Source: Akkermansia muciniphila (GTDB lineage: Bacteria; Verrucomicrobiota; Verrucomicrobiia; Verrucomicrobiales; Akkermansiaceae). From it: 32,024 nt of DNA. A program made the position numbers and the translations under genes. The first letter of the stretch is position 1, and every line of letters starts with the position of its first letter. The notes under the pieces were generated by a model. That model was not told where the DNA came from, made no database searches, and saw only the letters and a list, made by a program, of their open reading frames with translations. This document shows, piece by piece, positions 901-23,032 of this stretch. The stretch spans positions 1-32,024 of the forward strand of contig CAMDCV010000044.1 of assembly GCA_945890645.1 (NCBI GenBank), in the 5' to 3' direction.

Positions 901-3735
901 TCATTTCACTACGATTTTATGCGAACCGGGCTTCAGAGTCTGGGTCACAGGCGTGGTGTCGCCTTTGCCCCACGGGGAGGTTTTCGGCAGCGTGAGTTCG
1001 GCGGTGGTATTTGGTGGGATAGTGGCTTCGTAGAGAAGTGAGCCATCGTCTTGGCGATTCCAGTGGATGGAAATGCGACCGTGTGGAGAATCGTGATGGG
1101 CTTTGATCCATGAAATGGTATCGGTTTCGGTGGTGGCTTTTGCGGAGGGGAAATGAGGGTAGAGTTTAATTTTTGAATAGCCGGGTTCGAGTGGCGCGAT
1201 GCCAGCGAGGTCGGTTATCATCCATTCAGTGACGGCACCGAAGGCGTAGTGCGAAAACGAATTCATGGCGGCATTCATTTTGCCATCCGCGCCGCCGAAG
1301 CCGTGTTCCTCGGTGTAGGAATTCCAGCGTTCCCAGATGGTGGTAGCACCATTTTTTACTTCGTAGCCCCACGACGGATATTTACGCGATTGCAACATGG
1401 AAACAGCGAGGTCGAGATTGCCGGTGCTGGTGAGCATGGGCAGCAAGGGCTTGGTGCCGAGGAAACCGGTGGTCATGCCGGTATTTTTTTCTCCTGCCTT
1501 CGCACGGATCAACGCGGCGAGATGAGCCCCGGCGGCTTTGCGTTCGGCGGGATCGGTGAGAAGTTGGCAATCAAGTGCTAACACATAGGCGGATTGGGAT
1601 TCTGGTTTGATGGTGCCATCTGGCTGGAGGTACTGGGCACGGAAGTTCTTGCGCATGGTGTCAGCCCATACACGATATAGTTTCGCTACGGGGGTGAAAC
1701 CCTGCACATCGGCCATTTCCGCCATCATTTGAGAGCATTTGGTGAAGTAGGCAAGCTCGACGAACGGGTGCGGCGTGGGGTCGTTGAGATTGAGCCAGTC
1801 CCCCCACGGCGCGCCGAAGGCTTTGCCTTTGAGGTCGGGATCGTGGGCTAAACGAGCTTCCATAAAACGCGACATGTTTTTCCAATGAACCGTAAAAAAC
1901 GATGTGTCTCCTGTGGCTTTCCACAATGCGTAGGGCACGATGATCCCCGCATCCGACCAAGCGGTGCCGTGGATACCGCCGCCGTGACCGAAACAGTAAG
2001 GCGCGTAGGATGGATAGAAACCTTCCTTAGTGACGGCTTCATTCAACTCGCGCAGCCACTTGCGGAAAAACGCGGCGACATCGGCATGGATCGCGGCGGA
2101 GGCAGCGTAGATTTGGGCGTCGCCCGTCCAGCCGAGTCGTTCATCGCGCTGCGGGCAATCGGTGGGTAGCTCGATCCAGTTCGCGCGTTGGGTCCAGACG
2201 GCATTTTCAAAAATCTTGTTCACGACGGCATCGTTACACTCGAAGCTGGAGGCAAGCTGAGTATCCGAATGCATCACGAGACCAGTGATGGTATCGAGCG
2301 GTGGTTCTTTGTCGAAGCCAGTGATTTCTACATATTGAAAACCATGAAAGGTGAAACGAGGTGTCCATGTTTCTCCCTTGGGATCACCCTTGGCGATGTA
2401 GGTATCGGTCGCGCGCGCTTGGCGCAAATTTTCCGTCATCATGCGGCCATCGGGATGCAGCATCTCGGCGAAACGGAGCGTGAATTTTTTTCCAGCATCG
2501 GCTTTGACCTTAAGTCGCACGTTGCCAGCGAAGTTTTGTCCGAGATTGAAAATCCATGTGCCGGGCTTGATTTGTTTCACGGATTTCGCTTCGAGTTCTT
2601 GCGTGATGCGCACGGGTTGAGCGGGGTAAGCTTGCATTACTGGTGGTCGGACGAAACCGAATTCGCGTTTTTCATTTTTGATGAAGGCATCGGAAAACGG
2701 TTCGATGATGGAGCCGTTGTCTTGCGCGAGGATGGCGTTTTCCCACTTGGAATCGTCGAATGTGTGTGTCGCCCAGCCGGGCATTTCCTTGCGGGCATCG
2801 TAGGCTTCACCCATCAGGAAATCGGCTTCAACTTCGGGGCCGGTGGAGGTTTTCCATTTGGTATCAGTGCCGATGATTTCACTACTACCATCATCGTACT
2901 TCACGTGGATTTCCACCATCAGTGAGGGAGTCTTGCCATAGATGTTGCGGCCCGTTTTGTGTGGACCATAACCGACGAGTTTTCCGTAGCCGACGTAACC
3001 GGCATACCATCCATCGGCGACGATGGCACCAATGGCGTTTTGTTTTTCGGTGAGATAAGGCTTGAGGTCGTAGGTGTTGTAGTAAGCGCGCTGGCGGTAA
3101 TCCGTCCAACCGGGAGTGAAATAGGCTTCGCCGACGCGCTTGCCGTTGATGTGGAGTTCATAGATGCCGAGAGCCGATGCATAGGCGATGGCACTGACGA
3201 TTTTTTTCTCAGGAGTGAAGGTGCTGCGGTAATAGCGAGCGGGCGGAAGGGATAGTTTTTTCTGATCTTTGTGAAAGGGAGAGGTGTCTTTGTAAGAGAT
3301 GAAGGGTTGCGTCGGTTGTTTGCCGATGAGGGCGGTGAGGAATGGAACGGGGATATACCACTGTGAAGGCGTATCGCCGATCCAAGTGAAAATTTTCAGA
3401 TAGACATAGGTGGAGGATGGCAGGGGTTTTCCGGCGTAGAGAGCGTGTGGGTTGGTGGATTCCACGCGACCGCTATCCCAGAGGTCGGCCTTGCCGATTT
3501 CGAGAAGCTCTGCCTTGGTAGCAGCGAGGATATGATACGCTGTTTGGCTGCGACCGGAGGTCGGGCCTTCGATGCGCCAGGTGATGCGGGGTTGTGCGTC
3601 ATCGATGCCGATGGCGACAGATTGGTGAGCGACTTTGACATCAATGGGAGTGTGGGCATCAGTGTTCCTTGGCGTGAGGGCTGGTTGCGCATGCAGCAGC
3701 AGGGCAGAACCGAGGAGAATGAGGATTTGTTTCAT
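901..3735 (-). CDS. Secreted alpha-L-rhamnosidase, GH78 family
   Basis: A 944-residue protein, a typical full length for bacterial GH78, with a signal peptide at residues 1-16 (MKQILILLGSALLLHA). It should hydrolyse terminal alpha-L-rhamnose from glycans outside the cytoplasm. Family signatures in order are an N-terminal beta-sandwich start (GIDDAQPRITWR, 43-54), a carbohydrate-binding-like module (about 165-340), and the (alpha/alpha)6 barrel with DCPQRDERLGWTGD (526-539), which holds the acid residues of the active site. A second conserved acidic site is TIWERWNSY, with Glu802. It is the last gene of the minus-strand arm of the locus, downstream of two sulfatases, and its upstream intergenic region is repeat copy A. 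The exact linkage it cuts cannot be read from sequence. Confidence 0.92.
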   Translation of the reverse strand: MKQILILLGSALLLHAQPALTPRNTDAHTPIDVKVAHQSVAIGIDDAQPRITWRIEGPTSGRSQTAYHILAATKAELLEIGKADLWDSGRVESTNPHALYAGKPLPSSTYVYLKIFTWIGDTPSQWYIPVPFLTALIGKQPTQPFISYKDTSPFHKDQKKLSLPPARYYRSTFTPEKKIVSAIAYASALGIYELHINGKRVGEAYFTPGWTDYRQRAYYNTYDLKPYLTEKQNAIGAIVADGWYAGYVGYGKLVGYGPHKTGRNIYGKTPSLMVEIHVKYDDGSSEIIGTDTKWKTSTGPEVEADFLMGEAYDARKEMPGWATHTFDDSKWENAILAQDNGSIIEPFSDAFIKNEKREFGFVRPPVMQAYPAQPVRITQELEAKSVKQIKPGTWIFNLGQNFAGNVRLKVKADAGKKFTLRFAEMLHPDGRMMTENLRQARATDTYIAKGDPKGETWTPRFTFHGFQYVEITGFDKEPPLDTITGLVMHSDTQLASSFECNDAVVNKIFENAVWTQRANWIELPTDCPQRDERLGWTGDAQIYAASAAIHADVAAFFRKWLRELNEAVTKEGFYPSYAPYCFGHGGGIHGTAWSDAGIIVPYALWKATGDTSFFTVHWKNMSRFMEARLAHDPDLKGKAFGAPWGDWLNLNDPTPHPFVELAYFTKCSQMMAEMADVQGFTPVAKLYRVWADTMRKNFRAQYLQPDGTIKPESQSAYVLALDCQLLTDPAERKAAGAHLAALIRAKAGEKNTGMTTGFLGTKPLLPMLTSTGNLDLAVSMLQSRKYPSWGYEVKNGATTIWERWNSYTEEHGFGGADGKMNAAMNSFSHYAFGAVTEWMITDLAGIAPLEPGYSKIKLYPHFPSAKATTETDTISWIKAHHDSPHGRISIHWNRQDDGSLLYEATIPPNTTAELTLPKTSPWGKGDTTPVTQTLKPGSHKIVVK

Positions 3736-3750
3736 GAGTGTGGTGTTGGA

Positions 3751-3882
3751 TTTTTAAAATCAAAATTCAGCAATCGTCACTCAGCAATCGTCAATCGATT
3801 CTTGGACAGTAGCGGTTGATCATTCGATTTGATTTACGATTTACGATTGATGATTGTTGATGTTTGATTTTTGAATGAAGAG
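3751..3882. repeat. AT-rich intergenic repeat, copy A
   Basis: This copy fills the gap between the first sulfatase and GH78. It is about 90% identical by eye to copy B (5471-5595). It differs mainly by one extra 7-bp unit (TTTACGA) and by a variable core at 3801-3812. The two arms, 3754-3800 and 3821-3878, are imperfect inverted repeats of each other; each carries strings of GATT(T/G)ACGATTG and TTGATTTT when read outward. Because it lies directly upstream of GH78, it may carry promoter elements (TTGACG on the minus strand) or may be a MITE-like element. Confidence 0.7.
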
Positions 3883-3889
3883 TTTTGAA

Positions 3890-5458
3890 TTACCTTAGAT
3901 CTTTGAAGGGAAATGGTGAGGTGGCTTGAGCGGGGCTGACTGTTTCATCGCGACGGGGAAAATAGCGAGGTGCGATGTTTTTGGTGAGCCATTGTTTGAG
4001 TTGTGCGTGAAGTTGATTCGTGAGTTCGGGATTTGCGCCAGAAAGATCGTTAGATTCAGTGGGATCGGCGGGGATGTTATAGAGTTCGAGTTTGCCGTGC
4101 CAGTCCCAAATGAGTTTGTGATCACCCACGCGAATCCCGGAGTGCGGAGAGAGAGGTTGGCCGTTGTTTGGATGAATCACTTGAACGTTGAAAGGATAGT
4201 GCCAAATGAGTGTGCGTCCGGGTCCGGGGGATGTAGGATCTTTGAGCAGGGGCACCATGCTGCGACCATCGAGATCGGGCGGCAAAGGATTGCCGGTGAG
4301 CTCGGCGACGGTAGGCAGGAAGTCGGTGCAATCGATGACGGCATTCGACCACTTACCGCCCTCGAAGTGACCGGGTTGGCACACGATGGTGGGAACGCGA
4401 ATGCCGCCTTCGTAGAGCATGGCTTTGCCGCCTTTGAAGGGGAAGTTGGTGGTGGCTGCGGGGTCGGTGTAAGTGACGCCGCCGTTGTCGGAGGTGAAGA
4501 TTAGTATCGTGTTTTTGGATAGGCCCGTTTCTTCGAGTGTTTTGCGGATGGCGCCGATGGAGTCGTCGAGGTGCTTGAGCATCGCGGCGTAGGTGGCGTT
4601 GTTACGACCGAGATGTCCGCGTTGTTTTTTATCAGTAAAGCGTTTTTCCTCAGGCTTCGGTGCTTGAAACGGCGTGTGGACAGCGAAAGGGCAGTAGTAG
4701 AGAACGAAGGGTTTGCTCTGGTCCTTGCGAGCTTTCAGATAGTTCACGGCGCGAGCGCTGAGGTCGTCGGTGAGATAGTCTTGCTGAGTCGGCGCTCCGG
4801 ATTGACCGACACGGTACTTGCCCGGCATGGTGGGGAAAATCGGTTTGGTTTGATTCCATTGTTTCTGCCAATTAAAGTAGGGCGAACCACCGGCATCGAA
4901 GAATGCAAGTTCTTGAAAACCATGCGCGGCGGGCATCAACTCTGGCACGCCATGACCGCCGAGATGCCATTTGCCGAGAAAGGCGCAGTCGTGAGTGGCG
5001 ATGACTTTCGGCCAAGTCGGCAGGGCGGGATCGATCGATGTGTTAGAGGTCGCATTGATCCACGGGCGTTTGCCTTTGATGGGATCGGTGTGGGAGATGA
5101 CATCGTGCGGCGAATAATCCGCTGGTGGTTTTTGATTTTGATTGAAATAGGTTTTCGTGTTTGGGGTGGCAGTCGTGACGCCTAAGCGCGAGGCGATGCG
5201 GCCTGTGAGAATCGCGGCGCGGGTGGGTGAACAAAGTTGGTTCGAGTACGATTGCGAAAAGGCAATGCCATCGGCGACAAGTTGATCGAGATGGGGTGTT
5301 TCGAAAAAGAGTTCTTCGGGAGTGGTCTTGTTGAAATGGCGCGCATAGGCACCGATGTCGGTGATGCCGAGGTCATCGGCGAGAATGAAAACGATGTTCG
5401 GCGGCGCGGCGGAAGATGTTGTTAGAGTGAGGAGGGCGTAAAAGAGGATTTTTTTCAT
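3890..5458 (-). CDS. Secreted type I sulfatase (arylsulfatase A-like)
   Basis: A 522-residue formylglycine-dependent sulfatase with a signal peptide (residues 1-18). It removes sulfate esters, here presumably from a glycan. Visible hallmarks are the metal-binding LADDLG (Asp28, Asp29), the modification motif C76-S-P-T-R80 followed by AAILTGR, LGKWHLGGHG (Lys163, His165), His261, SDNGG (Asp324, Asn325), and the KGGKAMLYEGG segment near 342-352. All catalytic positions are present, so it should be active if an FGE or anaerobic maturase exists elsewhere. It lies between repeat copies A and B, in line with the iduronate-2-sulfatase-like gene and GH78. The sulfated sugar cannot be assigned. Confidence 0.93.
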   Translation of the reverse strand: MKKILFYALLTLTTSSAAPPNIVFILADDLGITDIGAYARHFNKTTPEELFFETPHLDQLVADGIAFSQSYSNQLCSPTRAAILTGRIASRLGVTTATPNTKTYFNQNQKPPADYSPHDVISHTDPIKGKRPWINATSNTSIDPALPTWPKVIATHDCAFLGKWHLGGHGVPELMPAAHGFQELAFFDAGGSPYFNWQKQWNQTKPIFPTMPGKYRVGQSGAPTQQDYLTDDLSARAVNYLKARKDQSKPFVLYYCPFAVHTPFQAPKPEEKRFTDKKQRGHLGRNNATYAAMLKHLDDSIGAIRKTLEETGLSKNTILIFTSDNGGVTYTDPAATTNFPFKGGKAMLYEGGIRVPTIVCQPGHFEGGKWSNAVIDCTDFLPTVAELTGNPLPPDLDGRSMVPLLKDPTSPGPGRTLIWHYPFNVQVIHPNNGQPLSPHSGIRVGDHKLIWDWHGKLELYNIPADPTESNDLSGANPELTNQLHAQLKQWLTKNIAPRYFPRRDETVSPAQATSPFPFKDLR

Positions 5459-5470
5459 GGGTGGTGATGG

Positions 5471-5595
5471 GTTTTGAAATCAAAAGTTAGCAATCATCAC
5501 TCAACAATCGTCAATCGATTCTCAGAGTGGAGCGGTTGAACATTCGATTTGATTTACGATTGATGATTGTTGATGTTTGATTTTTGAATGAAGAG
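5471..5595. repeat. AT-rich intergenic repeat, copy B
   Basis: Directly upstream of the first sulfatase (start 5458). It shares with copy A the inverted-arm structure, the phrase AGCGGTTGA in the core, and the end GATTTTTGAATGAAGAG. It has one TTTACGA unit fewer than copy A. The strong similarity outside coding DNA, in two gaps of the same gene cluster, marks it as a dispersed element. Confidence 0.7.
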
Positions 5596-5612
5596 GGGGC
5601 TTGGTGCTTGGA

Positions 5613-5638
5613 CCCTGCGTCACTAAAGTTATGCAGGG
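5613..5638 (-). other. Hairpin after the second sulfatase
   Basis: CCCTGC (5613-5618) and GCAGGG (5633-5638) can pair around a 14-nt loop, 20 bp past the stop of the iduronate-2-sulfatase-like gene. No T-tract follows on the minus strand, so an intrinsic terminator is not well supported. It could be an mRNA-stabilising stem or part of the adjacent repeat element. Confidence 0.3.
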
Positions 5639-5658
5639 CAGGAAGTGCCGCCACGAGT

Positions 5659-7137
5659 TCATTCGGGAATCGGGTCGGTGCGTTTGACGGGTTTGCCATC
5701 CCAGACGGCGGTGTCGGTTTTCGCATCGTAGGTGAGGACGCGCTTGGCACTGCCGACAGCAGGGGGAAGATCGATTTTGGGTAGCCATTTTTTGTGCTCG
5801 GCGATTACCGCAGCGTGTTCGGGTTTGGTGGCGAGATTGTGCCACTCGCGAGGATCGGCCACCATGTCGTAGAGTTCCTCTGAACCATCAGCATAGCGGA
5901 TGTAGCGCCAGCGTTCGCTGCGGATGCCGTGATTTCCTTGGTTGTGCGTGGTGATGGCGGGGCGCTCACGTCTCGCGGTAGCATCTCGGAGTTGTGGCAT
6001 GAGACTGAGGCCTTCGAGTTTTGCATTGGCGGGGATTTTTGTGAGATCGATGAGTGTCGGGAAAATATCGAGCAGTTCGGCGGGTGAAAGTAAGCGCTGG
6101 CCTCCTTTGACGCCGGGACCAGCGAATATGAGAGGCACACGGGTCGAGCGTTCCCAGAGCGTGTGTTTGCCGGTGATGCCTTTTTCGCCGAGATGCCAGC
6201 CGTGATCGCCCCACAGCACGACAATCGTATTTTTATCACGACCCGTTTCTGTTAGAGTTTTTAATAAGCGTCCGACTTGTGCATCAACGAAGCTCGTGCT
6301 GGCGAGATAACTGCGGACGAGGTTGCGCCACTGATTGTTTTCGCGGACCCATTTGAGGCGAGGCGATGATAGGTGCCAATCAAGATACCAAGAAAAATGC
6401 GGCACATCGTCGCGGTCGTTTTCTAGAATGGTGGGAAGGACGCTGTCATCATCGGGGTAAAGATCGAACCATTTCTGCGTCGCGTAGCATGGAACGTGAG
6501 GGAGGAAAAATCCGGCGGCGATGAAAAAGGGTTGGTCGGTGGGGGCATCGCGAATTTGTTGTTCGATCCATGTGGCGACTTTGTAATCGCCTTTTTTAGT
6601 GTCGTCGTTATCCAGTGGCCATACACCCCAATCGACGAGTTTGTTATTATCCATCGGTGTGGGGCCGACGAGTTTTTTCGGGGGCGATGAACCGACACCG
6701 CCAAAGCCACCGATGCTATCGAATTCTGCTAGTTTTGGTGGGCCGCCTGCCTTGGTGCCCAAGTGATAGATTTTTCCAGTGGCATAGGTGTGGTAGCCGT
6801 GGGCGGCGAAGTATTGCGGTAGAGAAAGTTGACTACGCAAATCAGGATGCGTGCGAGGTGTGGGCTCGAGGCCGTAGATGCCAGTAGTGGAGGGACGTAG
6901 GCCGAAGAGCACACTCGTGCGCGAGGGATTGCAGATGGGCGCTTGGCAATGGGCATTGAGAAAAGTAGTGCCGCGCGCGGCGAGGGCATCGATGTTCGGA
7001 GTCTTGACGAGCGGATGCCCGCCAAGGTGACCGATCCAATCGTTTTGATCATCGATGCAGAGAAACAAAATGTTCGGACGAGGTTCTGCGGCACCTACGA
7101 GTTTGACGAACAATAGCAGGGCCAAAAAAGTTTTCAT
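5659..7137 (-). CDS. Secreted sulfatase, iduronate-2-sulfatase-like
   Basis: A 492-residue type I sulfatase with a signal peptide (about residues 1-16). The opening PNILFLCIDDQNDW (Asp29, Asp30) and the text around it are typical of the iduronate-2-sulfatase/choline-sulfatase-like branch. The formylglycine motif is C69-N-P-S-R73. Other active-site candidates are TGKIYHLG (Lys122, His125), LPHVP (His214) and LWGDHGWHLGEKG (Asp311, His312). Its ATG overlaps the stop of the upstream gene by 4 bp (ATGA), so the two are probably translationally coupled. It belongs to a different sulfatase subfamily from the neighbour at 3890, suggesting two differently placed sulfate groups on the substrate. The similarity to iduronate sulfatase is a family trait, not a substrate claim. 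Confidence 0.93.
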   Translation of the reverse strand: MKTFLALLLFVKLVGAAEPRPNILFLCIDDQNDWIGHLGGHPLVKTPNIDALAARGTTFLNAHCQAPICNPSRTSVLFGLRPSTTGIYGLEPTPRTHPDLRSQLSLPQYFAAHGYHTYATGKIYHLGTKAGGPPKLAEFDSIGGFGGVGSSPPKKLVGPTPMDNNKLVDWGVWPLDNDDTKKGDYKVATWIEQQIRDAPTDQPFFIAAGFFLPHVPCYATQKWFDLYPDDDSVLPTILENDRDDVPHFSWYLDWHLSSPRLKWVRENNQWRNLVRSYLASTSFVDAQVGRLLKTLTETGRDKNTIVVLWGDHGWHLGEKGITGKHTLWERSTRVPLIFAGPGVKGGQRLLSPAELLDIFPTLIDLTKIPANAKLEGLSLMPQLRDATARRERPAITTHNQGNHGIRSERWRYIRYADGSEELYDMVADPREWHNLATKPEHAAVIAEHKKWLPKIDLPPAVGSAKRVLTYDAKTDTAVWDGKPVKRTDPIPE

Positions 7138-8003
7138 GGAGTTTTGCGAAGTTTTTCAAAGCGGGCGCGGATTTCATCGAGGGTGCCGATGGTGAGGTAG
7201 AAATTGTAATCCACTACGAGGCCTTGGGTAAGAGTCAATCTCCGCACGGGTGCGACGTAGGAACACGCCGAGCCGTTAGGGCCGGTGGAGCCATTGCCGC
7301 GGTGACGATAGGTGACGGCGTCCTGTGTGCCGGGGGTGTAGATGCCGATGCCGAAATTTGTATCGTCCACATAGGCGAGCCAATTTCCTGTGTATGTGAT
7401 GCCTTCAGGTTTGAGGTCTTTGCCAAGGAGATGGGGAGCATGCTTGACGAGTTTCCCGTCGCGCTCGAACATCAAATGAGGCAGCGCAAAGTCCACAAAC
7501 ATGGCCGGCATTTCTTGGTGGGCGTTGGCTTTTTGCGATGGTCCGGTGTAGTCGAGACGCATGCGGATTTTAGCGACGGCACCATCAAGCGTGATCCACT
7601 CCTGCATGATGGCTTCGGGGCAGGTTTTGGCACTGGCCCAATGGAGCGGCTCGATTTTTGCGAAGAGTTCTTTTTCGGTGAGTTTGAAGTCGAGGGTTTT
7701 GGCATCTTCTCCTTTGTAGCTGCCGCCTTGCACCGGATTGTAGGACCATGGTTTTTTTGCCCACATCGAGCCATCGCGATCGCCGTAATAGGATTGCTGA
7801 ATGAAACGGCCTTCGTCGTGATGATTCAGCAAATTGCGTTTATCTTTCGAGAGCGCGAGGTATCCGATCGCAGCGCCGCGCGCTTTATCAACACCGATAC
7901 GAATCGTGCCGTTGTCGAGATAGGTGAAAGGGTCTTTAGCGGCGGCGTGTGAATTGCAAGTTACAGCAATCAGCGTAGCAATGGTGATAAAAAAGCGATT
8001 CAT
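7134..8003 (-). CDS. Secreted protein of unknown function, coupled to a sulfatase
   Basis: A 289-residue protein beginning MNRFFITIATLIAVTCNSHAAA, a clean signal peptide, which is why the ATG at 8003 is chosen over an in-frame ATG at 8081 that would add an unlikely leader. The mature part opens with NGTIRIGVDKARGAAIGYL and contains NLLNHHDEGRFIQQSYYG and SYNPVQGG. I recall similar phrases in unannotated secreted proteins from saprophytic bacteria and fungi, but I cannot name a family. The high content of aromatic residues and beta-prone sequence suggests an all-beta carbohydrate-binding or catalytic domain (inference). It is the first gene of the minus-strand arm and overlaps the next sulfatase by 4 bp, so a role in the same glycan pathway is likely. 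Confidence 0.85.
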   Translation of the reverse strand: MNRFFITIATLIAVTCNSHAAAKDPFTYLDNGTIRIGVDKARGAAIGYLALSKDKRNLLNHHDEGRFIQQSYYGDRDGSMWAKKPWSYNPVQGGSYKGEDAKTLDFKLTEKELFAKIEPLHWASAKTCPEAIMQEWITLDGAVAKIRMRLDYTGPSQKANAHQEMPAMFVDFALPHLMFERDGKLVKHAPHLLGKDLKPEGITYTGNWLAYVDDTNFGIGIYTPGTQDAVTYRHRGNGSTGPNGSACSYVAPVRRLTLTQGLVVDYNFYLTIGTLDEIRARFEKLRKTP

Positions 8004-8052
8004 GTAATATTTTGATACGTCTGTAAGCCGCAGCATGTTGCAGATTTTTTCG

Positions 8053-8081
8053 GCTGTATGTAACCTTCGTATGTCTATCAA
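8053..8081 (-). promoter_or_regulatory. Possible sigma70 promoter for the minus-strand arm
   Basis: On the minus strand, TTGATA (8081-8076) is followed after 17 bp by TACAGC (8058-8053), about 50 bp before the start codon at 8003. The -35 match is good and the -10 match is poor. It lies in the 198-bp divergent gap (8004-8201) that must hold promoters for both arms. I see no obvious operator. Confidence 0.3.
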
Positions 8082-8140
8082 CGAGGCAATGTTTTATTTG
8101 TTATCGGCCGTTGCGATTCGGCTAGGGTGGGACAAATGGA

Positions 8141-8174
8141 TGATTTTTGATTTCCGATTTGAATACCAGGGAAG
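8141..8174 (+). repeat. Partial intergenic repeat, copy D
   Basis: The stretch TGATTTTTGATTTCCGATTTGA, split here for length, continues to GATTTGAATACCAG at 8157-8170. This 14-nt end is identical to the end of copy C upstream of GH106 (11756-11769). It sits about 30 bp before the oxidoreductase start. The shared end next to two start codons of the plus-strand arm could be a promoter or operator feature, or just a degraded member of the A/B repeat family. Confidence 0.45.
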
Positions 8175-8201
8175 CAGTGACTAGTGTCTCGTTCACAAAT
8201 C

Positions 8202-9569
8202 ATGAAACGAAGATCTTTTCTCACCAACGCCGTCGGCACCCTGGCGGCCAGTTCTGTTTTTCCTTCCTTCGCGATCGGCAAGCCAGGGAAGTCCGCGAAT
8301 AGCAAATTGAACATAGCTTTTATCGGGTCGGGTGGTTGGATTGCCCGACAGCCCTACGAGCAGGGTTGCAAGGACGAAAATCTTGTGGCGTTTTGCGATG
8401 TGGATCGCGATCGATGCGCGGAAAACATGAAGAACTGGAAAACCACGCAGCCGTTTTATGAGGACTTCCGTGAGATGTTCGACAAAATGCATAAGGACAT
8501 TGATGCCGTTGTCATCTCGACTCCGGACCACACACATTTTCCTGCCACACTCGCGGCAATGGAGCGCGGCATACATGTTTATACGCAAAAGCCGCTAACG
8601 CATAACATTTGGCAATCCCGCACACTCGTCAAAGCACAGGACCACTACAAGGTCATCACGCAAATGGGAAATCAAGGGCACGCGGGTGATGGCATCCGTC
8701 AATCGGTGGAAGCCTATCGCGCTGGAGTGATCGGTGATGTCAGTCAAGTGTATTGTCGAAACACTGGCCCCGAAATGGGTGGTCAGCATTTTGCCAATCC
8801 TGCAACGATGCCACTGCCCGCCATGCCCACACCGGAGGGGCTAAACTGGGACCTATGGCTCGGCCCGGTGGCGAATCGCGACTATCATATCGACTATCAT
8901 CCCACAAAGTGGCGCACGTTTTATGACTTTGGTTTAGGCATGCTTGGCGACTGGGGCTGTCATACGCTTGATACACCGGTGTGGGCACTCGATCTCGATC
9001 CGCCGACTTTGGTCGAATGCCTGGAACGCAAGAATTCGCTCGATGGCGTGATTCCCGCTGGTAGCCGCATAAGATATCACTTTCCTGCGAAGGGGACTCG
9101 CGGTCCGGTGACGCTCGATTGGTTCGATGGACCACAGGACTGGAAAGAGTTCGGCCGCATCGATAAATTTGGTGCCGAACATGCAGCGCATTTGGGACGT
9201 GCTTGTTGGATGGTTGGTACCAAGGGCATGATGGGCTGCGGCACGCATGCGGGTGCGCCATTAATTCTTCCTGAGGAGTTGCACAAAAATTGGCAAACGA
9301 ATCCGCCTGCGGCTTCGATCCCCCGCGTCGCCGGTGGTCCGTTCCGCGAATGGCTGCGCGCGATCAAAGGCGAAGGCCCTGAGCCGGGTTCGAATTTCCA
9401 CTACGGTGCCAAGCTCACGGAAATTATTCTGTTAGGTGTGTTGGCCCAGCGTTTTAATACGCGCATTGAATGGGATGCGAAAGCCGGTCGCATCACCAAT
9501 CGCCCCGAGCTCAATGCTTTCGTCAAGGAACCCGTTCGTTCTGGATGGGAATATGGGGAAAAACTCTAA
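8202..9569 (+). CDS. Tat-exported Gfo/Idh/MocA family oxidoreductase
   Basis: A 455-residue NAD(P)-dependent sugar oxidoreductase. The ATG at 8202 is preferred over a GTG at 8184 because it opens directly with the twin-arginine signal MKRRSFLTNAVG, ending near FAIGKPG; the protein is therefore expected in the periplasm with its cofactor bound. The Rossmann motif is NIAFIGSGGWI (38-47). The family's EKP-type site reads TQKPL with Lys130, and WGCHTLDTPVW is the usual conserved C-domain segment. It leads the plus-strand arm, 12 bp before the DUF1080 gene. In the established 3-keto-glycoside pathway such enzymes oxidise a sugar hydroxyl before bond cleavage. The substrate here is unknown. Confidence 0.92.
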   Translation: MKRRSFLTNAVGTLAASSVFPSFAIGKPGKSANSKLNIAFIGSGGWIARQPYEQGCKDENLVAFCDVDRDRCAENMKNWKTTQPFYEDFREMFDKMHKDIDAVVISTPDHTHFPATLAAMERGIHVYTQKPLTHNIWQSRTLVKAQDHYKVITQMGNQGHAGDGIRQSVEAYRAGVIGDVSQVYCRNTGPEMGGQHFANPATMPLPAMPTPEGLNWDLWLGPVANRDYHIDYHPTKWRTFYDFGLGMLGDWGCHTLDTPVWALDLDPPTLVECLERKNSLDGVIPAGSRIRYHFPAKGTRGPVTLDWFDGPQDWKEFGRIDKFGAEHAAHLGRACWMVGTKGMMGCGTHAGAPLILPEELHKNWQTNPPAASIPRVAGGPFREWLRAIKGEGPEPGSNFHYGAKLTEIILLGVLAQRFNTRIEWDAKAGRITNRPELNAFVKEPVRSGWEYGEKL

Positions 9570-9581
9570 CAAAATTAAATT

Positions 9582-10580
9582 ATGTTAAAAAAACGATGCA
9601 TATTATTTGGTGTAGGTGCCTTGCTAACTACCGTAACCATCACCGCGCAGCCCAAATCCGAGCCGCGCCTCTGGACCGATCCGGAAGTAGCGTTGCGCGA
9701 GGATCCCGATTTCGCAGTGCAGGGCGAATATCGATCTTCCGGTGACAAGGGGGTAGTCGGCGCCCAAGTGGTCGCACTCGGTATGGGTCAGTTTGAAATG
9801 TATGTTCTCGAAGGCGGTCTGCCGGGTGCAGGATGGGAACCCGCACTGTCACGCACTTTAGTGAAAGGCGAGCGCAAGGATGGCAAGATCGCCTTTGTCG
9901 AAGGAAACATCTCCTCCACAATCGAAAACGGAGCCATTTCTCTCATCAAAGCCGATGGCGCGAAGGTCACACTTAATCGCACAGAACGCACTAGCCCCAC
10001 CTTGAATGCCAAACCGCCCGAAGGAGCGGTGGTATTATTTGATGGTTCATCAATCGATGCATGGCTCAACGGAAAAATGGAAAGCGGTTTCATGATGGCC
10101 GTTGGCAGCACGAGCAAACAGCAGTTTGGCGATTACAAACTCCACGTCGAATTCCGCACACCCTACAAGCCCGATGCCCGCAGTCAAAAGCGCGGCAATA
10201 GCGGCATCTATCAGAGCGGCCGATGGGAGACGCAGATTCTCGACTCCTTCGGACTCGAGGGCAAAGACAATGAGTGTGGTGGCATTTACTCAATCGCAAA
10301 ACCGCGTCTGAACATGTGTCTGCCGCCGCTAACATGGCAGACCTACGATGTCGATTTCACCGCGGCTAAGTTCGATGCCGCGGGTCAACGCATCGCCTGG
10401 CCGCGCATCACCGTGCGCTTGAACGGCGTGCTCATTCATGAGGATCGTGAACTCATCAAAGACTTCACACCAGCTGCTCCTATCTCGAAACCTCTTACCT
10501 CACCCGAGGGACCCATTTTCCTCCAGCAACACGATAACCCTGTCGCATTTCGCAACATATGGATCGTGCCCGGCAAGTGA
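9582..10580 (+). CDS. DUF1080 / 3-keto-disaccharide hydrolase-like secreted protein
   Basis: A 332-residue protein with an N-terminal signal (residues 1-23, ending near TITAQ). The C-terminal half is a clear DUF1080 domain, a concanavalin-like sandwich: VVLFDGSSIDAWL opens it, followed by KLHVEFRTPY, GNSGIYQSGRWETQILDSFG, WQTYDVDF, RITVRLNGVLIH, and GPIFLQQHDNPVAFRNIWI at the end. DUF1080 members paired with Gfo/Idh/MocA enzymes have been shown in gut Bacteroides to cleave 3-keto-disaccharides. The N-terminal 140 residues are less conserved and may be an accessory module. It follows the oxidoreductase after 12 bp, consistent with one operon and consecutive steps. Confidence 0.9.
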   Translation: MLKKRCILFGVGALLTTVTITAQPKSEPRLWTDPEVALREDPDFAVQGEYRSSGDKGVVGAQVVALGMGQFEMYVLEGGLPGAGWEPALSRTLVKGERKDGKIAFVEGNISSTIENGAISLIKADGAKVTLNRTERTSPTLNAKPPEGAVVLFDGSSIDAWLNGKMESGFMMAVGSTSKQQFGDYKLHVEFRTPYKPDARSQKRGNSGIYQSGRWETQILDSFGLEGKDNECGGIYSIAKPRLNMCLPPLTWQTYDVDFTAAKFDAAGQRIAWPRITVRLNGVLIHEDRELIKDFTPAAPISKPLTSPEGPIFLQQHDNPVAFRNIWIVPGK

Positions 10581-10634
10581 GAATAATGCAATATCTCTCT
10601 GCTCCCAACAGTATTGTCCGTCTATTACAAATTT

Positions 10635-11645
10635 ATGAAGATTCCCTCCATCAAGTCGCTAAGCAAATGCGTCGCTATTGTCATCGCTGCTACTACTAGT
10701 TGCTACGCACAAGAAGCGGCGAAAAAACGAACTTGGGACAATGACGCGAAAGGCGTGCAAGTTTTCATCCTCGCCGGACAATCGAACATGGTCGGTCATG
10801 GTAAGGCGGAAGAAGGGCATGGCGACGTCAAGGGTGCCATCGGTGGACTGCGTTACCAAATAGTCAATGATCCGAAAAATTATGGGCATCTTGTGAACAA
10901 AGACAGCACATGGAAAACCCGCGATGATGTGAAAGTTTGGTGGCGTGATAGCGATATCCAGCAAGAGCGTGCTGTTATCAAGGGTGACTTGAAGATTGGC
11001 TATTCGCAGAGTCGCAATCCTGGCTGGATCGGACCAGAGTATGGCTTTGGTTGGATCGTGGGCGAGCATGTCAAGCAGCCGGTATTGCTCATTAAAGTCG
11101 CTTGGGGCGGCAAGAGCCTCCATGTTGATTTCCGCCCACCCAGTGCCGTCGCACGCGGTGGTGCCGTCGGCCCGTATTACACGGCATTGCTCGACTACGT
11201 GGAAGATTGTGTCAGCAATTTGGACAAAGAATTTCCCGAATGGAAGGGCAAGGGCTATCGCATCGCGGGCATTGGTTGGCATCAGGGGTGGAATGATCGT
11301 GTCGATAAAGTGGCCTCGGATCATTATGAAGCCAATCTCGTGGATCTCATCAAGGATCTGCGCATGGAATTTGGCAATCCGAAGTTGCCGTTTTCCATCA
11401 GTACCACCAGCATGGATCCTCCCCCCGAGCCCACTCAGGTCGAACTCGCGCAGCTCGCCGTAGCCGATGTCAAAAAGTATCCCGCCTTCAAAGGAAATGT
11501 CGCCACCGCGAATGCTCGTCCATTCTGGCGCGATGCCTCGGTCTCACCCAGCAACTTCGGCTATCATTGGAACCACAACGGCGAAAGCCAGTATCTCAAT
11601 GGGAAAGCCATGGGCGAAAATATGGTGAAAATGCTTACGCCGTAG
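10635..11645 (+). CDS. Secreted SASA-family carbohydrate esterase
   Basis: A 336-residue protein of the sialate O-acetylesterase-like (SASA, CE6-related) SGNH hydrolase family. The ATG at 10635 gives a signal peptide ending near SCYAQ; an in-frame TTG at 10614 would add an unneeded leader. The nucleophile block is VFILAGQSNMVGHG (Ser50). A second conserved block, GIGWHQGWND, follows, and the C-terminal block YHWNHNGESQYLNGKAMG should hold the catalytic His. It probably removes acetyl or related esters from the glycan so the sulfatases and rhamnosidases can act. It lies 54 bp after DUF1080 and 141 bp before GH106. Confidence 0.88.
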   Translation: MKIPSIKSLSKCVAIVIAATTSCYAQEAAKKRTWDNDAKGVQVFILAGQSNMVGHGKAEEGHGDVKGAIGGLRYQIVNDPKNYGHLVNKDSTWKTRDDVKVWWRDSDIQQERAVIKGDLKIGYSQSRNPGWIGPEYGFGWIVGEHVKQPVLLIKVAWGGKSLHVDFRPPSAVARGGAVGPYYTALLDYVEDCVSNLDKEFPEWKGKGYRIAGIGWHQGWNDRVDKVASDHYEANLVDLIKDLRMEFGNPKLPFSISTTSMDPPPEPTQVELAQLAVADVKKYPAFKGNVATANARPFWRDASVSPSNFGYHWNHNGESQYLNGKAMGENMVKMLTP

Positions 11646-11685
11646 GGTCAGAAAGTCAAAAGGTCGTAAGGTCCTAAAGTCGGGA
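11646..11685 (+). repeat. Five tandem octamers, consensus RGTCNNAA
   Basis: Directly after the esterase stop codon there are five consecutive 8-bp units: GGTCAGAA, AGTCAAAA, GGTCGTAA, GGTCCTAA and AGTCGGGA. The spacing is exact. They are noncoding and lie between the esterase and repeat copy C. Their role is unknown. Multiple spaced GTC cores could be a protein-binding array or slippage-prone junk. Confidence 0.6.
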
Positions 11686-11726
11686 AGATACTCGTCTCTT
11701 GCGAAGCGGTCTGATGTCTATGGATT

Positions 11727-11771
11727 GATTTACGATTGATGGGTGTTGATGTTTGATTTGAATACCAGTGA
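11727..11771 (+). repeat. Intergenic repeat, copy C (single arm)
   Basis: The segment ATTTACGATTGATGGGTGTT (in 11728-11747) and the following TGATGTTTGATTTGAATACC (11748-11767) match the right arm of copies A and B, but the left arm is missing. It ends 16 bp before the GH106 start codon. Its terminal GATTTGAATACCAG is identical to copy D. Confidence 0.6.
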
Positions 11772-11786
11772 CTCCATTACCATTTT

Positions 11787-14717
11787 ATGAAACAGCTACT
11801 TTTCCTTACCACTCTACTTTTCACACTAAGCGCAACATCACTCCGCGGTGACTTGTCGCAAGACGATTTTCGCAATCCACCGATTGAGGCGCGACCGATG
11901 GCCTTGTGGACTTGGTTGAATGGATATGTGGACCATAAACAAATCTCGCGTGAGCTGGAAGAAATGAAAGCCAAGGGCATGCGCGGTGGAGTCATTTGGG
12001 ATTTGGGGAGCATTGCGGATCCGCAGAAAATGATTCCTGCTGGGCCGGAGTTTCTGGGGCCGGAATCACTGAAGAGTATTCACCATGCGATGGATGAAGC
12101 TGAGCGCCTCGGGCTAGAACTTGGACTGGTGGCATCGAGTAGCTGGAATGCGGGTGGCACCTGGATCAAGCCGGAGAATGCGAGCAAGGCATTGTTGTGG
12201 AGTGAGCTGAGCGTCGAGGGCCCAAAAGAGTTTTCGGCAGTGTTGCCGCTGCCGCAAAAAGTTTCCGCTCATCATCAAACAGTTGCCGTGTGGGCCGTTC
12301 CCGACGCGGCGGACAAAACCATCGCTAGTGCGGCATCGGTGCGCTTGGATGACAAGGTCGATGCGGAAGGGCGTTTGACTTGGTCGGTGCCAGCAGGTGC
12401 GTGGCGCGTTTTGCGTTTTGTCTCTAAAAACACCGGAGAGTTGCTGAATTGCCCGAGTCCCAATTCGCGCGGTCTGCTCATTGATCATCTTAGCGGACCG
12501 GCGACAGACGTGCATTTTCATCACATGCTCGATACCTTGTCGAAAGGCCGTGATGATTTTGGTTCACTGAAAATGTTGATGCTCGATAGCTACGAAGTAC
12601 ATCCAGCAAATGATTGGACTCCAGAATTTCTCCAGTCGTTTCAGAAGCTCAACGGTTATGATGCCACGCCATGGTTGCCAGTGCTTGCGGGATGGACGGT
12701 AGGCAGCAAGGAACTGAGCGAGCGGTTTCGTCATGATTATACGAAAACGGTGAGCGACTTGATGATCGATGGCCACTTCGCACGTTCGCGTGAAATTTTG
12801 AACAAGCGCGGTTTGCAATTGTTGGCGGAAGGGGGACATGGTGGCTATGCACGTGTGGATCCGCTGAAGGCGTTAGGCGCGTCCGACATCCCGATGGGCG
12901 AGTTTTGGAATCATCGCAAAAACTGGGTGACGAAAGAAGCGGCCAGCGCGGCACACATTTATGGCAAGCGTTTTGTGAATTCCGAGTCGTTTACGGGTTG
13001 GCAGAATTGGCAGGATGGTCCGGCGGCTTACAAACGGCTTTTCGATATTGCCCTCTGCGCGGGATTGAACCAAGTGACGTTTCATACCTTCGCCCACAAT
13101 CCACCCGAAGCGGGGCTACCAGGTTACGCTTACCATGCGGGCGAGCATTTCAATGTCAACGCCACTTGGTGGGATCAAGCCGGGCCGATGCTTGCTGATA
13201 TGTCGCGCGCATGCCACTTGATGCAACAGGGTCGTTTCGTAGCGGATGTTTGCGCTTACTATGGCGATAATGCGCCGAATCTCGTGCCTGCTCGTCGCTT
13301 GCCGCCGACCATAGAGAACCCCTATCCCGATGGCACCTGCCAACATTGTGGGCGCGCTCTTCCTGTGGACTTGCGTTCGTTAGGTCAAGGCTATGATTAT
13401 GACTACATCAATGAGGAAGTGCTGCTCACCCGCATGAAGTTCGAGAACGGCCTGCTGGTATTGCCTGATGGCATGAGCTATCGCATGATGGTGCTGCCGG
13501 ATCGCAAAAGCATTTCGCTCGCCGCGTTGAAACGCATAGTCGAGCTCGTCGAGGCCGGCGCTACGATTGTCGGCCCGAAACCGGAGCGCTCTAATAGCTT
13601 GCGCGGCTATCCTGATTGCGATCGCGAAGTGCAAGCGCTCGCGAACAAAATTTGGGGCAAAGATGTAAAGAAAAAATCGCATATTTATGGCAAAGGGAAA
13701 GTTGTTTGGGACACCCCGCTGCGCGACGTGCTGATGGCCATGAAAGTGGAGTCTGACTTCGTTGTTGAGGCTATCGACAATTTGGATCAGCACATCGACT
13801 ACATCCACCGCGCCACGGCGGAGGAAGACATTTATTTTGTTTCGAATAGCGCTATGAAGCGTGAAGTCGTGCGTTGTCGATTCCGCGTCTCCGCAGATCG
13901 CGTGCCGAGTTTTTGGAACTCGGAGGATGGCAGTGTAAAGCCGTGTTATATGTACGAAACGAAAGACGGTTTCACATACATCACACTCGACCTCGCTCCC
14001 TCATCATCGGTGTTTGTGGTTTTTGCCAAGGGTGAGAAAAATGATGCCATCGTAAAAATCGAGAGAAAGGAGGGGGTCTGGTCAGAAAATCGTCCCGAGC
14101 TTGATATCATGAGCGTTGATCATAAGCAACTCACCGCAAACATCTGGCGAGCAGGGGAGTATCATATTCAAACTGCCAGCGGACGCAGCAGCCAAATCAA
14201 GGTTTCACAAGTGCCAACAGAGCTATCCCTCTCTGGTCCATGGACGGTGACTTTTCCTCCCGACCGAGGCGCGCCCGCCATAGTTATGATGGAGACTCTC
14301 ATGGACTGGACTAAATCCACTGATCCTGGTGTGCAGTATTTTTCCGGTACGGCTCGCTATGAAAATCAGTTCACTTTAGCCGCGGCATCCGTAACACCTT
14401 TGATGCTCGATCTCGGCAGCGTAAAGGATGTGGCCGTAATCCGCATCAATGGCAAAGAAGCCGAAGTGCTGTGGAAAGAACCCTATCGGATCGATATCGC
14501 TCCTCACGTGCAAGCGGGCGAAAACAAATTGGAAATCAGTATCGTCAACACTTGGAATAATCGCATCATCGGTGACCTGCACAGCCCTGAGGAAGCGCGA
14601 ATCACCCGCACGAATCTTGTGGGAAAATTTCGTCCGAATATGCCCTTGTTGCCGTCCGGTTTACTTGGTCCTGTTGTGCTGCGTTCGCCCGTGATCATCA
14701 CGGCTGAGCTGAAATAA
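11787..14717 (+). CDS. Secreted GH106-type alpha-L-rhamnosidase
   Basis: A 976-residue protein with a signal peptide (residues 1-21). The opening of the mature protein, RPMALWTWLNG at about 36-46, then ISRELEEMKAKGMRGGVIWD, is the typical start of the GH106 barrel. MLMLDSYEV and GEFWNHRK lie in the central barrel region. A C-terminal beta-sandwich (about 815-975) ends with LLPSGLLGPVVLRSP, as seen in this family. GH106 enzymes remove alpha-L-rhamnose from complex polymers such as rhamnogalacturonan II. It is unrelated in sequence to the GH78 enzyme at 901, so the locus carries two independent rhamnosidase folds. It is last in the plus-strand arm, convergent with the MFS gene, leaving only 6 bp between the stops. 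Confidence 0.88.
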   Translation: MKQLLFLTTLLFTLSATSLRGDLSQDDFRNPPIEARPMALWTWLNGYVDHKQISRELEEMKAKGMRGGVIWDLGSIADPQKMIPAGPEFLGPESLKSIHHAMDEAERLGLELGLVASSSWNAGGTWIKPENASKALLWSELSVEGPKEFSAVLPLPQKVSAHHQTVAVWAVPDAADKTIASAASVRLDDKVDAEGRLTWSVPAGAWRVLRFVSKNTGELLNCPSPNSRGLLIDHLSGPATDVHFHHMLDTLSKGRDDFGSLKMLMLDSYEVHPANDWTPEFLQSFQKLNGYDATPWLPVLAGWTVGSKELSERFRHDYTKTVSDLMIDGHFARSREILNKRGLQLLAEGGHGGYARVDPLKALGASDIPMGEFWNHRKNWVTKEAASAAHIYGKRFVNSESFTGWQNWQDGPAAYKRLFDIALCAGLNQVTFHTFAHNPPEAGLPGYAYHAGEHFNVNATWWDQAGPMLADMSRACHLMQQGRFVADVCAYYGDNAPNLVPARRLPPTIENPYPDGTCQHCGRALPVDLRSLGQGYDYDYINEEVLLTRMKFENGLLVLPDGMSYRMMVLPDRKSISLAALKRIVELVEAGATIVGPKPERSNSLRGYPDCDREVQALANKIWGKDVKKKSHIYGKGKVVWDTPLRDVLMAMKVESDFVVEAIDNLDQHIDYIHRATAEEDIYFVSNSAMKREVVRCRFRVSADRVPSFWNSEDGSVKPCYMYETKDGFTYITLDLAPSSSVFVVFAKGEKNDAIVKIERKEGVWSENRPELDIMSVDHKQLTANIWRAGEYHIQTASGRSSQIKVSQVPTELSLSGPWTVTFPPDRGAPAIVMMETLMDWTKSTDPGVQYFSGTARYENQFTLAAASVTPLMLDLGSVKDVAVIRINGKEAEVLWKEPYRIDIAPHVQAGENKLEISIVNTWNNRIIGDLHSPEEARITRTNLVGKFRPNMPLLPSGLLGPVVLRSPVIITAELK

Positions 14718-14723
14718 TGGAAA

Positions 14724-16028
14724 TCACATCGCTTCCGTAGTCGGATTTGGATCACGGCGCTGCGCAGTGGTCCCATCTTCACGCTGATCCATGACACGGA
14801 TAATTTTTAAATAATACAAAATGCCGATGATATAGAGAAATGCCGTGGCAAGAAAAACGGCCCAATACGGCACGTCCATGGATCGCAACACCTGAAAGAC
14901 CCGCGCTGCTAACCACCAGGCACCACTCCAGATTGCGCCACTACAGGCACTCATGAGTTCGCGGTTTCTCTCACCTACGTAATTCATGGTCAGCTCGCTG
15001 GTCGCCGGTCCCGCCATGCTCATCAGCGGTTGTCGTACGATAAAACAAGTGACCGCAATGGGCAATGACCACCACAACTCGCGCCATAGTTCCGTCAGAC
15101 CCATGAGGACCAACAAGACGATCGCCACCCCTTGCACCCCGATGATCGCGCCACGCCAGCCATAGCGCCGACGAATTTCCGGCACCATTAAGCCGGTGAG
15201 CAGTACGAGCACATTGCTGATCGTCCCGTAGGCGGAATACTGTGACGAAGAAACCGCATGCACGGAACTAAAAAACAGATTGAGAAACTGAATGCTCAAG
15301 CCTGCGCCCGTGGCAATCACTAAACTAGGAATCAGCGAGCGTAGTAAAACGGGCACGTCTTCCTTGTGCATGTGCAACCAGTGCTTGGGGGCAGCACCCT
15401 CTGGCGGTGGATCGGGCAATCGTAAGAACAAAAAAGGCGCGCCGAACCCTGCCAAGGTCAGCAGCAATAAGGTCGCGTACTCATCGAGCACGATAGGAAG
15501 GCCAAACAAATCCATGTGACCCATGCCTTGCAACGCACTGGAGAGAACGCCGCCGCAAATGCTTGCCGCCGCCCAAGTGGCGAACAGCAAGCTCAGCGCC
15601 TCGCTCGATTTATCGGGGCTCACCATGCGTAACACCATCGGTAAGCTGGCGACGTTTAAGACCAATCCTGCAAATCCCATCAACAGAAAACACCATGACG
15701 CTGCTGACATATGCCCGCGTTGCACGGTTTCGAGCGATGCCAACGCCATTAAGGGAAACAGCACCGAGCCAATTACCAACGGCCAGCGCAGTCGTTTGCC
15801 GCGTAGCCAAAGTCCAGCGGGGATGGCCAAAAAGAATGTGGCGACAAAGCGTTGCGATGTCAGCGCCGCGATCGCCGGGTCATCGAGGTGATGCGATTTC
15901 AGAAATAAATTCAGCAACAAAAACTGCGCCGTCTGAATCAGGTTGAGCAAAAACTGCCCTGCGGCAAAAAGGATGATGCTCTTGGGCAGGGTGCCGTATT
16001 GTTGCAACCAGCGTGGTAAAGTTGCCAT
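14724..16028 (-). CDS. MFS transporter
   Basis: A 434-residue polytopic membrane protein with about 11-12 hydrophobic helices and a long central loop (about 218-232, LPDPPPEGAAPKHW) that separates the two six-helix halves, as expected of the major facilitator superfamily. The basic segment LRGKRLRWP between helices 2 and 3 fits the family's cytoplasmic loop. It has a minus-strand start with no gene immediately upstream, so it is probably its own transcription unit. Its position at the end of the glycan locus suggests uptake of a released sugar such as rhamnose or a uronic-acid oligomer, but that is inference only. No SusC/SusD-type importer is present. Confidence 0.85.
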   Translation of the reverse strand: MATLPRWLQQYGTLPKSIILFAAGQFLLNLIQTAQFLLLNLFLKSHHLDDPAIAALTSQRFVATFFLAIPAGLWLRGKRLRWPLVIGSVLFPLMALASLETVQRGHMSAASWCFLLMGFAGLVLNVASLPMVLRMVSPDKSSEALSLLFATWAAASICGGVLSSALQGMGHMDLFGLPIVLDEYATLLLLTLAGFGAPFLFLRLPDPPPEGAAPKHWLHMHKEDVPVLLRSLIPSLVIATGAGLSIQFLNLFFSSVHAVSSSQYSAYGTISNVLVLLTGLMVPEIRRRYGWRGAIIGVQGVAIVLLVLMGLTELWRELWWSLPIAVTCFIVRQPLMSMAGPATSELTMNYVGERNRELMSACSGAIWSGAWWLAARVFQVLRSMDVPYWAVFLATAFLYIIGILYYLKIIRVMDQREDGTTAQRRDPNPTTEAM

Positions 16029-21066: not shown

Positions 21067-21148
21067 GAAGCAAGGTAGCAACGACTTTTGACCGCGCAAG
21101 AGTCATGACGAAAAAAAATGAATTTTCGCGGTTAGATAGTGACAATGC

Positions 21149-22948: not shown

Positions 22949-23032
22949 GAGGGTGATGCCTTTCGCTTGGGCTACGTGATTAAGCAACGCAATGTTGCAA
23001 AAGTCGCGCGGGTTTGTCAAACTATCGGCACG

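Follow-up and report, generated by a model that had tools for sequence, protein, structure and literature searches.

The window analysed here, 32,024 nucleotides in length, is the entire contig C44 (CAMDCV010000044.1) of the Akkermansia muciniphila assembly GCA_945890645.1 (3.82 Mb, completeness 97.55%). It carries a putative glycan-degradation locus of eight genes, which spans positions 901–14717 and is divided into two divergent arms according to the list of open reading frames (ORFs) and the matches in Pfam and NCBIfam. The minus arm comprises the genes of an orphan exported protein of 289 residues (U289, 7134–8003), of two formylglycine-type sulfatases, S1b (5659–7137) and S1a (3890–5458), and of a GH78 alpha-L-rhamnosidase (901–3735). 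The plus arm comprises the genes of a Gfo/Idh/MocA oxidoreductase (GFO, 8184–9569), a DUF1080 protein (9582–10580), a SASA-type carbohydrate esterase (10614–11645), and a GH106 alpha-L-rhamnosidase (11787–14717). The arms diverge from an intergenic space of 180 bp (8004–8183). The U289 stop and the S1b start share 4 nt, which suggests a single transcript. All Pfam domains called in these genes exceeded the gathering scores, namely, PF17389 in GH78 (340 bits), PF00884 in S1a and S1b (153 and 159 bits, respectively), PF01408 in GFO (63.5 bits), PF06439 in residues 148–328 of the DUF1080 protein (112 bits), PF03629 in the esterase (71.5 bits), and PF17132 in GH106 (522 bits). For export signals, visual inspection and a hydropathy script were used rather than a dedicated predictor, and all eight arm genes started with Sec- or Tat-like signals: a Sec signal in GH78, S1a, S1b, the DUF1080 protein, and the esterase, a Sec-type signal peptide in U289, and a Tat-like KRRSFL start in GFO, whose start codon is probably the ATG at 8202. 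Thus, the nine ORFs of the original prediction (these eight and a transporter gene) were all found at their coordinates, Pfam agreed with the families proposed for them (two sulfatases, GH78, GH106, SASA, Gfo/Idh/MocA, DUF1080, and a major facilitator superfamily (MFS) transporter), and the claim of export signals on all genes except the transporter was upheld.

No match to U289 was found in Pfam, in NCBIfam, or among the PDB sequences. Its listed start, TTG at 8081, gives 26 extra residues, and the ATG at 8003 gives the Sec-type signal peptide; the latter start was preferred by eye, and the comparisons used it and hence are no test of it. Relatives of U289 were detected in 27 of 288 genomes of the phylum and in nine of ten genomes of the genus, three of which, the window's own included, had an identity of at least 74%; a further search of the genome_contigs collection yielded 16 loci, two of them from Bacteroidales. 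The nearest loci were found in metagenome-assembled genomes (MAGs) labelled Akkermansia, Luteolibacter, Prosthecobacter, Akkermansiaceae, and Verrucomicrobiaceae, several of them also labelled "pond", and the host bacterium is likely a freshwater member of Verrucomicrobiales, probably of Akkermansiaceae. A codon-level comparison between U289 and six orthologues revealed purifying selection (8–17% change at second codon positions versus 47–56% at third positions). An alignment of 23 members from the wider family had 21 invariant columns, in which D63 and E164 were the sole acids. The family has architectures of about 290, about 320–340, and about 450–500 residues, the longest with an extra C-terminal region. 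U289 represents a conserved and so far undescribed protein family, distributed across several families of the phylum. The original prediction of an unknown secreted protein was right as to export and orphan status, but it missed this conservation and the GH174-like predicted fold described below. In a distant genome, a U289 domain forms part of a 778-residue ORF (L053:8105–10441), and a GH78 gene is located some 6 kb from it. In another branch, formed by L056, L060, L061, and L043, a large protein that resembles carbamoyl-phosphate synthase, as judged by eye, adjoins U289 (near 9.5 kb) in the first three loci and lies about 5 kb from it in L043. Rhamnosidases were not detected in these four loci, which may thus represent a housekeeping-like branch of the family.

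Gene neighbourhoods were compared by tblastn (threshold 1e-10) in 31 U289 loci of 4.8–20.9 kb, including the window; L052 was omitted as a copy of L043. The pairs L033/L035 and L040/L041 were near-identical, and L047 and L048 share one genome, so the 30 loci other than the window are not all independent. The controls were 20 stretches of 20 kb, taken at round coordinates from 12 U289-holding genomes, none of them from the genome_contigs MAGs. A rhamnosidase gene was found near U289 in 12 of the 31 loci; with the window set aside, the frequency was 11/30, compared with 0/20 in the controls (Fisher p = 0.0016). Because part of the queries had been taken from the case loci and could favour them, GH78 and GH106 profiles were rebuilt leaving out each of the 12 loci, and these profiles recovered 12 of 12 (the weakest being L053, E = 1e-23), while the full profiles found nothing in the 20 controls at E below 0.01. 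In the U289 tree, the window was placed in a supported clade of 16 rows (98/98), ten of which had a rhamnosidase and all of which had a rhamnosidase or a sulfatase.

Of the ten closest rows, with the window counted, six had a GH78 orthologue with at least 75% identity, and five had an S1a orthologue with at least 73% identity. The GH78 orthologues (75–80%) were located in L032, L034, L036, L037, and L039, and those of S1a (73–76%) in L034, L037, L039, and L038, where the contig end truncates the gene. The order U289–(variable genes)–S1a–GH78 was kept in L034, L037, and L039, and U289–GH78 in L032 and L036. L037 consists of U289–S1a–GH78, and the insertions between the core genes in L034 and L039 encode extra sulfatases, a pectate-lyase-like protein, or a GH116 protein. 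No close orthologue of S1b was present in the loci of relatives, the best match being 44% over 90 residues in L034. L047, L049, and L050 come from different families of the phylum and have a GH106-type gene directly against U289, and relatives of S1a (45–46% identity) are located about 6–7 kb from U289 in L047–L049. The GH106 match beside U289 was the sole one in genome G211 (5.3 Mb), one of two in G194, and one of six in G227. The comparison of gene order across Verrucomicrobiota, which had been proposed as a check, showed that the minus-arm core U289–S1a–GH78 recurs in relatives and that the link of U289 to rhamnosidases extends to other families of the phylum. The plus arm did not recur as a whole, although relatives of some of its genes are joined to U289 in L038 and L057.

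A structural model of U289 built from 17 sequences had a predicted local distance difference test (pLDDT) score of 88 and a predicted template-modelling (pTM) score of 0.85. Its top structural match was the GH174 chain 8jd7 (Z = 23.5, 3.0 Å, 255 of 289 residues aligned, 13% identity), followed by the GH174 chain 9k1g (Z = 22.0), with the next row at Z = 18.5; the predicted model thus has a GH174-like fold. When the profiles A1, A2, and A3 and the single sequence were searched against PDB sequences, GH174 chains were absent from the matches up to E = 10. The residues listed for Fun174A are D119, E120, and E218 (available text of the review PMC11943901). The spacing D63–E164 in U289 is 101, against 99 and 98 for D119/E120–E218; spacing alone was compared, and the likeness is suggestive only. 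U289 is a putative, probably chain-cleaving, glycan enzyme. It appears unlikely that U289 is instead a periplasmic sugar mutarotase or epimerase that conditions released sugars and does not cleave chains. Such a role would agree with the GalM and aldose-epimerase chains among the structural matches (Z about 16) and with other U289 branches, whose loci had no detected GH78 or GH106 and mostly no sulfatase genes; however, the GH174 chains scored clearly higher, U289 lies directly against a GH106-type gene in L047, L049, L050, and L057, and the need for an exported mutarotase acting on free sugar would be less obvious.

Both sulfatases belong to class S1, having PF00884 and an intact C-x-P/A-S/T-R motif (CSPTR at residue 76 of S1a and CNPSR at residue 69 of S1b). 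The nearest solved chains of S1a were 7oza, which is unassigned, and then 9fo1, a kappa-carrageenan sulfatase (S1_16). S1b was closest to 6hhm (165 bits), with choline sulfatases close behind (152 bits). The available text of PMC9096561 names 6hhm P18_S1_7 and describes its action on 2-sulfo-xylose of ulvan, and this enzyme ranked ahead of the rhamnose-3-sulfatase P36_S1_25. It should be noted that the likeness to S1_16 (S1a) and S1_7 (S1b) is that of the nearest PDB chains and not a SulfAtlas assignment. Because the nearest activities concern kappa-carrageenan and xylose-2-sulfate, the sulfate may not sit on rhamnose; the chains 7oza and 9fo1 (S1a) and P18_S1_7 (S1b) gave no clear sign of the sulfated rhamnose implied by the original prediction.

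The GH78 protein has the catalytic domain and the acidic motifs of the family, DERLGWTGD (531) and WERW (801), and its nearest solved chain was PDB 3w5m (618 bits). GH106 was the sole PF17132 protein found in the window's genome; in addition to the domain, it has two glutamates, E270 and E400, which align with E461 and E593 of 5mqm, a chain that we take to be BT0986 with these two glutamates catalytic. The motifs GQSNM and WHQG were present in the SASA esterase.

The best NCBIfam match of GFO was NF058561 (BT_2158_fam, glycoside 3-dehydrogenase; 312 bits), and its nearest solved chains were 8tdf and 8tdh; that of the DUF1080 protein was 4qhz. The DUF1080 protein belongs to PF06439 (111.7 bits versus a gathering score of 26.8), a family now named 3-keto-disaccharide hydrolase, and the first 142 residues (window 9582–10007) of its 147-residue N-terminal region had no Pfam match. 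BT2157, a member of the same family, is a 3-ketotrehalose hydrolase according to the available text of PMC9007349. Judging from these sequence matches, GFO is a candidate glycoside 3-dehydrogenase, and the pair resembles a 3-keto-glycoside pathway; a C3-oxidation route would be its likeliest role because of the NF058561 match, the naming of PF06439, and the activity of BT2157. The oxidative component of the original prediction is therefore real as regards the oxidoreductase, but the 3-keto-glycoside likeness (NF058561, PF06439, and 8tdf/8tdh) had been missed. A stepwise oxidation, elimination, and hydration of glycosides was reportedly described in a 2024 Nature study. In the single literature search made for co-mention, no paper was found that named at least three of GH106, sulfatase, DUF1080, and Gfo/Idh/MocA. 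PF06439 had 20 match rows in the window's genome, one of them under the cut-off. Relatives of GFO were present in 278 of 288 genomes of the phylum, and GFO was rejected as a locus marker as too common.

The genome contained 57 PF00884 sulfatase matches, two of them partial. On contig C4 of this genome (G000), at about 60–121 kb (L086 and L087), a dense cluster was observed in which sulfatase genes follow one another in runs and, as judged by eye, a pectate-lyase-like gene is present. PF07470 (GH88/GH105) had no match in the whole 97.55%-complete genome, so canonical lyase-type ulvan breakdown is unlikely; the earlier remark that no GH105 was seen thereby extends from the window to the genome, and ulvan degradation was rejected as the principal explanation. 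None of the window ORFs scanned with Pfam had a lyase domain, the ulvan lyase families (presumably PL24, PL25, PL28, PL37, and PL40) not having been searched specifically. A partial ulvan pathway with its lyases elsewhere in the genome is very improbable, given this absence of PF07470 and the nearly equal score of S1b with choline sulfatases (152 versus 165 bits), even though S1b is nearest to the ulvan sulfatase 6hhm (PMC9096561) and pairs of GH78 and sulfatase are known in ulvan degraders (PMC8360166), as far as the available text of these papers describes them. The original prediction had offered either a different, rhamnan-sulfate-like substrate or an incomplete set completed outside the window; GH88/GH105 had no match elsewhere in the genome, and a sulfated heteroglycan with alpha-L-rhamnose would be the best-fitting substrate. 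Contig C22 contains microcompartment shell genes together with those of phosphate propanoyltransferase, acetate kinase, and an aldehyde dehydrogenase. Such microcompartments have been linked to rhamnose and fucose use in freshwater Verrucomicrobia (PMC5615132) and in aquatic Akkermansiaceae (PMC13174399), according to the available text of both. The combination of sulfatases with two kinds of alpha-L-rhamnosidase holds, and its rhamnose theme fits the C22 cluster.

The MFS transporter gene (14724–16028, minus strand; PF07690 (MFS_1), 54 bits) converges on GH106. Of 38 related genomes, 10 had a match to it, the genome of the window being one of them. In the MFS stretches of eight other genomes (G288, G289, G291–G295, and G215), three of these stretches being only 5–14 kb long, and with a ninth genome, G314, left out of the survey, neither GH78, GFO, DUF1080, SASA, nor GH106 was found. 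Divergent sulfatases (24–29% identity) were located 2–7 kb from the MFS gene in G288 and G295, and a 38% paralogue of U289 about 13 kb from it in G291. The MFS gene was accordingly rejected as the locus transporter and is probably a flanking neighbour; of the divergent nine-gene locus proposed earlier, the two arms with eight genes stand. An IS200-like (Y1) transposase-type gene (16617–17726) adjoins the MFS gene and has relatives in the MFS stretches L080 and L082. In the other half of the contig, at a distance from the glycan genes, four ORFs of 226–652 residues (19858–21099, 21149–23107, 24193–24873, and 24933–26333) had no Pfam match above the cut-off.

A repeat of 116 nt lies upstream of GH78 (3752–3867) and of S1a (5472–5587), with partial copies upstream of GH106 (11725–11759) and, weakly, of GFO (8136–8172). 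It has an ATC-rich heptad pattern and, in the copy before S1a, the palindrome TTTTGA-TT-TCAAAA. Its core occurs at about two dozen sites of the genome (25 rows, some overlapping), including sites before genes that look unrelated by eye, and it was thus rejected as a locus-specific regulator site; these copies indicate a dispersed intergenic repeat and do not prove co-regulation.

Taken together, we favour, with slightly better than even confidence, a two-armed exported locus directed at a sulfated heteroglycan bearing alpha-L-rhamnose, in which U289 is a candidate for a new glycan-cleaving family and the two arms may be regulated jointly. In the minus arm, U289 would probably cleave the chain, S1a and S1b would take off sulfate, and GH78 would release rhamnose. 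In the plus arm, the Tat-exported GFO would probably oxidise C3 of a sugar, after which the DUF1080 protein would break the activated 3-keto-glycoside; SASA would remove acyl groups, and GH106 would take rhamnose beyond the reach of GH78. The freed rhamnose or fucose would then enter the microcompartment route encoded on contig C22. If confirmed, 3-keto-glycoside-type chemistry beside sulfatases and rhamnosidases would extend that pathway to sulfated glycans.

Several observations weigh against this reading. The solved structures nearest to S1a and S1b give no indication of sulfated rhamnose, and sulfatases near U289, in genomes rich in them, were not significantly enriched (13/30, or 14/31 with the window, versus 5/20; p = 0.24). 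Outside the 16-row clade, a rhamnosidase was found in just 2 of 15 loci (L053 and L057), so the U289 family is not confined to this role, and the U289 fold is related to a large galactose-mutarotase-like group, many members of which are not endo-hydrolases. The score of GFO (312 bits) is well under the NF058561 equivalog cut-off of 750. The whole plus arm was found beside the minus arm in no examined relative, and a survey was made of 11 regions that surround 12 of the closest matches to GFO (three others of the closest, G159 C22, G035 C2, and G247, were left out): none had GH78 or GH106, two had DUF1080, and none had U289.

These last results bear on the alternative of two independent adjacent loci, in which the conserved minus arm would serve a sulfated glycan, whereas the plus arm would have been acquired separately and would degrade an unsulfated rhamnoside, such as a plant glycoside or the side chain of a pectin, by GH106, the esterase, and 3-keto chemistry. 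It agrees with the lack of both arms in any examined near relative, with the absence of rhamnosidase and U289 around close GFO relatives, and with the presence among the nearest solved GH106 chains of 5mqm, which we take to come from a pectin-degrading system. Nevertheless, both arms share the single 180-bp intergenic space, and two relatives join elements of both. In L057, from another family of the phylum, the order GFO–SASA–GH106–U289 is present on one strand, and in L038, GFO and DUF1080 are divergent from S1–U289–...–S1a, the contig edge falling within S1a. The GFO relatives in L038 and L057 are just 31% and 27% identical to that of the window, respectively, and the genome G118, the source of L057, has 43 PF17132 match rows, far above the numbers in 13 further genomes that were searched; the GH106 gene beside U289 in L057 may therefore be there by chance and is weak evidence alone. 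The two-loci alternative is therefore considered doubtful, though a serious one.

With regard to U289 itself, we tentatively propose, with clearly less than even confidence, that it founds an undescribed GH family, a fold relative of GH174 that would cut inside a sulfated rhamnose-containing chain, and that U289, S1a, and GH78 form an old core which would acquire other sulfatases, GH116, a pectate-lyase-like protein, or a 3-keto module depending on the glycan. To our knowledge, few backbone openers of rhamnose-rich sulfated glycans are known beyond the ulvan lyases and the GH39 endo-rhamnosidase. The latter is described in the available text of PMC8360166, and such glycans are regarded as hard to degrade in that of PMC8857213. 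An exported protein family of this small size (about 290 residues), often encoded near rhamnosidase genes, is a concrete candidate for backbone cleavage.

Compared with the GH174 endo-1,3-fucanases (8jd7 and 9k1g), U289 is alike in predicted fold and in the near-equal spacing of two conserved acids, but has no detectable sequence similarity and has rhamnosidases as neighbours; at 289 residues, it is shorter and lacks the C-terminal region present in the sister group of about 450–500 residues. The ulvan locus of Formosa agariphila, as described in the available text of PMC8360166 and PMC9096561, acts on a sulfated rhamnose glycan and also brings together S1 sulfatases and a GH78 exo-rhamnosidase, whereas the locus studied here has no GH88/GH105 match in its genome, has GH106, the 3-keto pair, and U289 in addition, and has in S1a and S1b sulfatases that may not be rhamnose sulfatases. 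The sulfated methyl pentose loci of Verrucomicrobiota, as far as the available text of PMC8857213, PMC5615132, and PMC13174399 presents them, also have GH78/GH106 near sulfatases and a rhamnose/fucose microcompartment; those of PMC13174399 come from the same family, Akkermansiaceae, and those of the other two papers from the same phylum. The main text of PMC8857213 contains no mention of Gfo, DUF1080, or an oxidoreductase, and that of PMC5615132 none of DUF1080. The BT2157/BT2158 pathway (PMC9007349, available text; NF058561) likewise pairs a DUF1080 protein with a Gfo/Idh/MocA 3-dehydrogenase homologue, each bearing an export signal and encoded by neighbouring genes; in the locus studied here, its further enzymes were not seen, GFO falls under the BT_2158 equivalog cut-off, and the pair is tied to sulfatases and rhamnosidases. 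The locus is thus real and coherent and belongs to a known kind, the sulfatase and rhamnosidase loci of Verrucomicrobiota; its unusual features are the 3-keto-type pair and the conserved orphan family with a GH174-like predicted fold.

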